Made by a program: the position numbers and the translations under genes. A stretch of 64,000 nt of DNA from Halopiger xanaduensis SH-6 (lineage in GTDB: Archaea > Halobacteriota > Halobacteria > Halobacteriales > Natrialbaceae), in the NCBI RefSeq assembly GCF_000217715.1, contig NC_015666.1:384270-448269 (forward strand). The letters are read 5' to 3'. The notes below the pieces were generated by a model that saw only the letters and a program-made list of their open reading frames with translations, had not been told where the DNA came from and did not search any database. This document shows, in pieces, positions 36,265-38,298 of the stretch; position 1 is the first letter of the stretch; each line of letters starts with the position of its first letter.

Positions 36265-36389
36265 CTCTAGATCGTGGTCTCGAGGGGAATCATCAAAAAC
36301 GTTCATCTCAGATACGACGTTCTCCGGACGGCAGACCGAACGCAATCGCAAGCTGATCGAAATTCCACGTCGCCGCGAATTTCATGCGG

Positions 36390-36397
36390 TTTAATAC
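36390..36397 (+). promoter_or_regulatory. TATA box for reductase gene
   Basis: TTTAATAC begins 31 nt before ATG 36421, giving a predicted start at or beside the start codon (leaderless). Confidence 0.6.
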
Positions 36398-36420
36398 GCC
36401 CCACTGAGTGCCACTGGTGT

Positions 36421-37812
36421 ATGGAACGCGTTGATGTCGCGATCGTCGGCGGTGGCCCCGCGGGCGCGTCCGCAGCCGAGCGGGCCGCCGCCCACGGCGC
36501 CGAGACGGTGCTCTTCGAACAGGGCGTCCCGCGGGAGGACCGCGAGGACCTCGGCCCCGACTCCACCGACGCCGCCGGCATGCTCGACTACTGGATCGAC
36601 ATCATGGACTTCGACTACCGGGAGATCCCCGACGACGTCATCCTCCGGGAACTCGAGGGGACCGAGTTCATCGGCCCCAACAGCGCCGTCGAGATCTCGA
36701 CGACGGGGATGGACGCCACCTACCCGGAGTTCGGCTACACCTTCCACCGCGCCCGGATGGACGACTGGCTCTACGAGCGCGCCGAAGACGCCGGCGCTGA
36801 CCTGCGCGTCGGGACCAGCGTCACGGACCTCGAGACCGACCTCCGCGCCTCGAGTCCGAAGGGACCGACCCACACGCTGACGCTCTCGAACGGCGACCAA
36901 CTCGAGGCCCAGTACGTCGTCCTCGCGGACGGCCCGCAGCGACGGATCACCCTCGACGCACTCGATCAGTTCACGGCCCCCGGCCGCAGCGTCTCGGACT
37001 ACCTCTCGCCGCCTGAGGCCAACCACATCGCTTACCAGGAGTATCGGAACTTCCCCGAAGAACTGTTCGAGGAATTCGAAGACCGACTCAAATTCTGGTG
37101 GGGCTACATGCCCGGCGAAACCGCCTACCCCTGGGTCTTCCCCAACGACGGCACGGTCGCCCGCGTCGGCCTGACGATGCCCATCGGCATGGAACTCGAG
37201 GACGTCGAGAACCCCGCGGCCTACAAACTGCTCGACAGCGACGACGACCAGCTCCCCTCGGGATCGGAGTACATCCGCCGCTTGCTCGAGCGCGAGTACG
37301 GCGACGAGTACGATATCGAGGAGGACATCCCGATCGTCGAGGACCGCGGCAAATCGAAGGGCACCGAAACCTATCCGATCTCCTCGACGCGGCCGATCGA
37401 CTCCCCCGTCGGCGCCAACATCGCCGTCGCCGGCGGCGCGATGGGCACAACCTCTGCCTTCCACGAGGGCGGCTACCACGTCGCCGTCCGCACCGGCAAG
37501 ATCGCCGGTCGACTCGCCGGCACCGACTCGCTCGAGCACTATAACGACATCTGGAAGCGCGCTATCGGCGACGAAATCCTGCGTAACGTCGCCTTCGCGG
37601 ATATCGTCGAAGACTATCAGCCCGACGACTGGGATCGGGCTTTCAACATTATCAACCAGATGCAAGGGACGAACGGTACCGACTCGCTGTTCTCTCGAAC
37701 CTACTCCGCCGGATTCGACGCTACGAAACTGCTCGCGAGCTACAAGAAGCGCAAGTTCCAGTACCGCGACGGCCGATACGTCCAACTTACCGAAGACGAG
37801 TACTTCTACTAA
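36421..37812 (+). CDS. Geranylgeranyl-reductase-family flavoprotein
   Basis: The 463-residue FAD protein starts VDVAIVGGGPAGASAAERAAAHGAETVLFEQ (Rossmann FAD site), has the YVVLADGPQRR strand and a second FAD-contact region, VGANIAVAGGAMGTTSAFHEGGYHVAV. Such enzymes saturate isoprenoid chains of archaeal lipids, quinones or other polyprenyls; long length (463) and acidic loops differ from the short lipid enzyme. The exact substrate is not determined. It stands alone. Confidence 0.85.
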   Translation: MERVDVAIVGGGPAGASAAERAAAHGAETVLFEQGVPREDREDLGPDSTDAAGMLDYWIDIMDFDYREIPDDVILRELEGTEFIGPNSAVEISTTGMDATYPEFGYTFHRARMDDWLYERAEDAGADLRVGTSVTDLETDLRASSPKGPTHTLTLSNGDQLEAQYVVLADGPQRRITLDALDQFTAPGRSVSDYLSPPEANHIAYQEYRNFPEELFEEFEDRLKFWWGYMPGETAYPWVFPNDGTVARVGLTMPIGMELEDVENPAAYKLLDSDDDQLPSGSEYIRRLLEREYGDEYDIEEDIPIVEDRGKSKGTETYPISSTRPIDSPVGANIAVAGGAMGTTSAFHEGGYHVAVRTGKIAGRLAGTDSLEHYNDIWKRAIGDEILRNVAFADIVEDYQPDDWDRAFNIINQMQGTNGTDSLFSRTYSAGFDATKLLASYKKRKFQYRDGRYVQLTEDEYFY

Positions 37813-37961
37813 CTCCCGTTAGCAGCCGCATCCGGCTCTCTCCTTCGGTCTTCGATTCGGTCTCAGCTCTCGGTCAGTCACACTATCTTCAGCCAGTTCA
37901 CTTTCGAGGACCGAAACGCTCCGTATTGAACGTGGACGAGAGCAATCACTCGCAGAAAACG

Positions 37962-37968
37962 TTTAAAC
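37962..37968 (+). promoter_or_regulatory. TATA box ahead of structured RNA candidate
   Basis: GTTTAAAC, preceded by an A-rich CAGAAAAC element like a BRE, is a strong archaeal promoter. The core is palindromic, so by itself it could work either way; the structured region 25 nt to the right favours the + direction, with a start near 37989. Confidence 0.55.
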
Positions 37969-37988
37969 GACGTGCAGCCCTAGCACGA

Positions 37989-38192
37989 GTGCGTGCCTTT
38001 GTCCCCGACCGAGTGAACCCATCCGGGTGCGATGACAGTACGGCGAACCCGGGCACGCAATATGCCGGAACGATCACATCGTTCCACCGACCGGTGATGG
38101 CTCACAGCCATCCGCCCGGCACGAGGGTTAGCCAGCTGACGCGGCACGCCGCCACGGGATGAGGCTGGACGTTAGTGTTCCGGGCGACATTT
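37989..38192 (+). ncRNA. Candidate structured non-coding RNA
   Basis: About 25 nt after a strong TATA box begins a hairpin-rich stretch. TGCGTGCC (37990-37997) pairs with GGCACGCA (38052-38059). A compact four-way junction follows: outer helix TGCCG (38063-38067)/CGGCA (38117-38121); GAACGAT-CAC-ATCGTTC (38068-38084); CACC-GACC-GGTG (38085-38096); ATGGCT-CAC-AGCCAT (38097-38111). GCGGC-AC-GCCGC lies at 38141-38152. The end is set loosely at a T-run near 38190. It is not SRP or RNase P RNA by any motif I know. An alternative is a leaderless GTG frame (37989-38162, 57 residues), but that peptide is His-rich and not acidic, unlike its neighbours. Confidence 0.45.
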
Positions 38193-38298
38193 TCGGTACA
38201 CGATTGAGTCGAACAGGAACAACTGTCGGATGGTGTAGTTGCACTATTGGTGTGAGTATGATAAAGTTCGAATAGCCGCTGCGCTCTGCGTATGAAAG

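Follow-up and report, generated by a model that had tools for sequence, protein, structure and literature searches.

Identity of the RNA

The 64,000-nt stretch of Halopiger xanaduensis SH-6 DNA analysed here (the window) contains a segment that faces a convergent rRNA operon, and the question was what this segment encodes. A sequence-only reading had proposed a structured, unannotated, non-coding RNA with its own promoter, neither SRP RNA nor RNase P RNA, with a four-way junction as its core; an Rfam search and an alignment across haloarchaea for compensatory base changes were suggested as checks. We find that positions 37990-38189 (+) are an unannotated double-hairpin box H/ACA guide sRNA. 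The structured-RNA proposal was thus borne out in each of these respects except the fold, which had been misread, since the core consists of two H/ACA hairpins with pockets and not of a four-way junction. For the guide-RNA account as a whole (a two-hairpin H/ACA sRNA, its promoter, predicted 23S rRNA targets, RNP and linker role) we estimate a probability of about 0.96. The features are listed in Table 1.

In both hairpins, HP1 and HP2, an internal loop separates the lower from the upper stem. Their sizes and ends are close to those of H/ACA hairpins (about 65-75 nt, ending in ANA/ACA), HP1 being 73 nt long with ATA and HP2 77 nt long with ACA, and both boxes are kept in relatives at the hairpin ends. 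The stem TGCGTGCC/GGCACGCA noticed earlier is present in HP1, where 37990-37997 pairs with 38052-38059. For the exact RNA 37990-38192, the best predicted fold has an energy of -85.2 kcal/mol and consists of HP1, the three hairpins of the linker and HP2; the whole 231-nt span folded only mildly better than its shuffles (z -1.92).

In Rfam 15, no family reached its gathering score with the window RNA or with the loci of 20 relatives, and relaxing the search to E 5 yielded nothing relevant for the window RNA. The SRP RNA and RNase P RNA models had no match at the locus in the window or in the same 20 relatives, as the sequence-only reading had anticipated. Weak minus-strand matches to Actino-pnp (E 0.14) and mir-5985 (E 0.86) were dismissed as irrelevant.

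Table 1. Features of the guide RNA locus and its predicted target sites, in window positions
Feature	Position	Strand	Remarks
Promoter, BRE-like A-run	37956-37959	+	A at -32
Promoter, TATA box TTTAAA	37962-37967	+	within TATA-like GTTTAAAC (37961-37968)
TA inside CTAG, about -9/-8	37981-37982	+	conserved upstream position
HP1 hairpin	37990-38062	+	alignment and covariation; model R2 places HP1 upstream of HP2 in haloarchaeal loci
HP1 lower stem	37990-37998 with 38051-38059	+	alignment and covariation
HP1 5' guide GUC	38001-38003	+	pairs GAC beyond target UA; GTC(CCC) near-invariant in relatives
HP1 3' guide AACCC	38046-38050	+	pairs GGGUU ahead of target U; ATA box 14 nt away
HP1 box ATA	38060-38062	+	hairpin end, kept in relatives
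Variable linker, 50 nt, three simple hairpins	38063-38112	+	hairpins 38068-38084, 38085-38096, 38097-38111
HP2 hairpin	38113-38189	+	alignment and covariation; model R1 matches 122/125 family genomes
HP2 lower stem CGCCCGG/CCGGGCG, 5' arm CGCCCGG	38113-38119	+	
HP2 5' guide GAGGGUUA	38123-38130	+	pairs UGACCCUC of 23S helix 69
HP2 3' guide GUUAGU	38171-38176	+	GUUA serves U1949, UAGU serves U1951
HP2 box ACA	38187-38189	+	hairpin end, kept in relatives
HP1 predicted target U2614, own 23S rRNA (GGGUU-U-A-GACC)	38921	-	guide pairing
HP2 predicted targets U1949 and U1951, own 23S rRNA helix 69 loop	39584-39586	-	

Conservation of HP1 and HP2

A BLAST search with 37930-38240 hit 35 of the 41 haloarchaeal relatives, and the matches form a pair of conserved blocks on either side of a variable middle. 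In the extracted loci the first block corresponds to HP1, the second to HP2, and the middle to a linker of variable length. The HP2 covariance model found normally one copy per matched genome of the family. It also matched other families of the order strongly and other Halobacteriota weakly (E 1e-5 to 1e-2), and the HP1 model placed HP1 just upstream of HP2 in matched loci. Outside the haloarchaea, HP1 and HP2 lie 4-7 nt apart in those Halobacteriota where both were found. A pattern scan of named genomes returned at least 120 records, the listed ones all from haloarchaea, and an HP1-like hairpin preceded HP2 in all 116 listed records with enough upstream sequence. Named orthologues occur in Haloarcula, Natrinema and Halorubrum among the matches listed. 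Although almost every haloarchaeal genome searched has HP2, the RNA is absent from Rfam; annotation pipelines could find it with a covariance model built for HP1 and HP2.

Copy number departed from one in a few genomes. One (G094) has two intact-looking HP2 copies (L036 and L157), each with HP1 upstream. HP2 was not matched in G092 and G103, both of them family genomes that are nearly complete, possibly through assembly breaks near rRNA operons.

The suggested alignment did reveal compensatory changes, of the kind expected of H/ACA stems, in both hairpins. RNAalifold consensus structures were built from 26 HP1 and 23 HP2 sequences, giving 23 and 20 pairs, respectively. For HP1, 97.5% of cells were paired and 7 pairs had changed on both sides; its covariation scored 0.201, where shuffles averaged 0.140. 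For HP2 the corresponding values were 99.6%, 4 pairs, and 0.136 against 0.089. None of 500 shuffles reached the observed score in either case. Sliding the pair partners abolished pairing, and the sliding controls fell far below both hairpins, although this control favours these structures because the same alignments served to derive them.

Predicted targets and proposed working

In an archaeal H/ACA sRNA the internal loop should pair on both sides of an unpaired target UN, which should lie 14-16 nt from the box (PMC3608112); this distance was found for all three uridines assigned here. In the HP2 pocket, U1949 lies unpaired between the duplexes formed by GAGGGUUA and GUUA (8+4 bp), 16 nt from ACA. 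U1951 lies between those formed by GAGGGU and UAGU (6+4 bp, 14 nt from ACA). A pairing search scored 23S U831 slightly above U1949, at a non-canonical distance of 18 nt from ACA; it was rejected as a target because it falls outside the 14-16 nt rule. The HP1 pocket fits U2614 of the genome's own 23S rRNA (7+3 bp, 14 nt from the ATA box), which is one of two sites in 23S and 16S rRNA with the required pairing.

The guide elements of both pockets are almost invariant across about 158 loci. In HP2, the 5' guide keeps GAGGGTT in every one of 158 loci with A or T as its final base, and the 3' guide GTTAGTG is present in 158/158; in HP1, AACCC is present in 157 of 158 haloarchaeal loci. The 5' guide duplex of HP1 comprises only 3 bp in haloarchaea, compared with 4 bp (GGUC) in other Halobacteriota, so the assignment of U2614 leans partly on published work. 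We take U2614 to correspond to Psi2621 of Haloarcula, and U1949 and U1951 of helix 69 occupy the Haloarcula Psi1956 and Psi1958 positions (PMC2584109).

HP2 contains a k-turn-like CUGA...GAUGA, and GATGA is kept in both hairpins, as a sequence-level match. The genome encodes TruB/Cbf5 and Nop10, both scoring above cut-off, and has a weak match to Gar1 (24.5 bits against a Pfam cut-off of 29.3). We propose that the TATA/-10 promoter would drive a transcript from about 37990, that L7Ae would bind the k-turn of each hairpin, and that Cbf5-Nop10-Gar1 would dock at the ACA or ATA box of each. The HP1 pocket would then offer U2614, and the HP2 pocket U1949 and U1951 in two registers shifted by 2 nt, for conversion to pseudouridine by Cbf5. 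The three self-contained hairpins of the 50-nt linker may hold the catalytic hairpins apart and prevent mispairing of the linker.

Eukaryotic two-hairpin H/ACA snoRNAs have a short hinge with a true H box (ANANNA); to our knowledge, they do not require an L7Ae-type k-turn and have no linker made of a hairpin array. As reported in PMC2584109, the eukaryotic U19 and snR191 resemble HP2 in that a single RNA guides both helix 69 pseudouridines. According to the same text, stems II and III of Pyrococcus Pf7 are homologues of HP1 and HP2, and stem III likewise guides the Psi1956 equivalent, but Pf7 has three hairpins set side by side without a long linker. Pab40 and Afu4 of Pyrococcus and Archaeoglobus differ in that the Psi1958 equivalent was not formed in vitro, again as given there.

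The closest counterpart is the haloarchaeal sRNA of Grosjean et al. (2008), who assign HP1 to Psi2621 and HP2 to Psi1956/Psi1958; a long spacer separates the two in halobacteria, and conservation is haloarchaea-wide (PMC2584109). In a later classification the hairpins are called Hvo1 and Hvo2a/b, and validation by experiment in H. volcanii is cited, Blaby et al. 2011 being among the references (PMC4652768). The window RNA agrees with the published sRNA in hairpin order, spacer and predicted targets and, given those published assignments, is by sequence comparison the orthologue of HP1/HP2 (Hvo1/Hvo2), differing as a separate copy with a 50-nt, three-hairpin linker. The kind of RNA is already known from haloarchaea (PMC2584109), and the window copy is an ordinary member. 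What is gained at this locus is an identity, with predicted rRNA targets, for a guide RNA that had no annotation.

The linker and its hairpins

The three small stem-loops pointed out earlier, GAACGAT-CAC-ATCGTTC, CACC-GACC-GGTG and ATGGCT-CAC-AGCCAT, are present and make up most of the linker, whose fold is more stable than those of dinucleotide-shuffled versions (z about -4). Over 159 loci the linker ranges from 0 to 183 nt, with 130 distinct sequences. The 121 distinct linkers of at least 12 nt had a mean z of -2.83, and nearly all linkers fold as simple hairpins. In a comparison with flanks of the same length, linkers had a mean z of -2.85, whereas the flanks had -0.10 (Mann-Whitney p about 1e-31) and -0.28 (p about 1e-27). 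Covariation supports the hairpin in a group of 22 related linkers with one hairpin each (0/500 shuffles). The linker hairpins are not due to chance.

The number of hairpins per linker varies from 0 to 7 and differs within genera (0 or 1; 0, 1 or 2; 2 or 4). Three named Haloarcula species, among the matches listed, have linkers of 41 nt (L260), 91 nt (L232) and 144 nt (L211), the longer two sharing the start of the shortest and carrying one or two extra blocks of about 50 nt. The series has the appearance of two-hairpin modules of that size being added or lost one at a time. Another linker (L164) holds a 62-nt direct repeat of a two-hairpin unit, 92% identical at a spacing of 100. In our reading, hairpin modules appear to come and go whole, self-folding being the property that is retained. 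Of the long linkers, one was searched against 10 genomes and another against 7, and each was matched in full solely at its own locus; the next-best matches (E 3e-9 and 5e-9) were the same locus in other genomes, and beyond that position only short weak palindromes appeared. The linker was thus rejected as a dispersed mobile repeat.

These data bear on whether the linker hairpins form a separate functional domain, added in haloarchaea, either as a protein-binding array or as a spacer selected for more than separation. Such a domain would be compatible with the H/ACA assignment, and the excess folding, the covarying group and the apparent whole-module changes inside genera speak for it. Hairpin number, however, varies even inside a genus, several species have hairpin-free linkers of 2-7 nt, and the loops and stems of the linker are not conserved, which makes a specific ligand unlikely; the same data are also explained by self-folding insulation or by tolerated growth of inverted repeats. 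We consider a separate domain doubtful. Only tentatively, as a rather unlikely refinement, do we suggest a fast-evolving modular domain of two-hairpin units of about 50 nt selected for self-folding, with a function beyond that of a tether. If so, the linker might space two Cbf5 units, help to keep the RNA stable in high salt, or bind protein.

The main texts of earlier work, in their accessible parts, term the linker just "a long spacer" and leave its hairpins and modular growth undescribed, although a supplement may show folds. Relative to those texts, the modular hairpin linker is a modest new observation. The range from adjacent to separated hairpins across the phylum offers a natural series on the limits of H/ACA spacing and on the evolution of structured spacers.

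The supposed four-way junction is this linker between HP1 and HP2. A new structured RNA with a junction core closed by TGCCG/CGGCA would account for the three stem-loops and for a fold that beats shuffles, but the closing stem does not hold: its 3' arm (38117-38121) shares bases with the HP2 lower stem, on the 5' side, and forcing it costs about 8 kcal/mol (-77.3 kcal/mol, against the best fold without it). Of 151 haloarchaeal loci, just 1, that of the window, keeps all its pairs; the nearest relative, of the same genus, already breaks 2 of the 5, and relatives' linkers span the whole range of length and hairpin number given above. Energy and the loss in 150 of 151 loci rule out the junction as a conserved feature, and we regard this fold as highly improbable.

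Promoter, transcript ends and coding potential

That the locus is instead a gene for a small protein with a His-rich frame, an alternative raised beforehand, draws on a 78-codon TTG frame open over 37926-38162, but locus lengths modulo 3 change freely across classes among relatives (59/59/40) and conservation tracks stems and pockets rather than codons, so that this is the least credible reading of all.

The guide RNA has upstream signals of its own, including the TATA element claimed from the sequence. When 157 distinct upstream regions were aligned at the first base of HP1, A at -32 was conserved in 90%, T at -27/-26 in 89/87% and A at -25 in 76%, with TTAA at -27 to -24. At -9/-8, T and A were conserved in 70% and 73%; we take this TA to be the haloarchaeal -10 (WW) promoter element. 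The 4 nt just after the ACA box are rich in T in the aligned loci. The arrangement fits a transcript running from about 37990, which is probably the true 5' end, to a few nucleotides past the ACA box, and the end at 38192 proposed earlier is about right.

Neighbouring sequence

Directly upstream of the sRNA, 36274-37812 (+) encodes what we take, from the protein, to be a geranylgeranyl reductase-type, FAD-dependent oxidoreductase. A similar reductase C-terminus was found upstream in 4 of 76 relatives' loci by a crude motif, and synteny with the reductase was set aside as a marker of the locus. The interval from the stop codon of the reductase to the promoter of the sRNA holds an 11-bp inverted repeat, TTCGGTCCTCGA...TCGAAGACCGAA, at 37844-37915 (-). 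Its Actino-pnp match (E 0.14) is far below the gathering score, so the repeat is probably a chance or terminator-like element.
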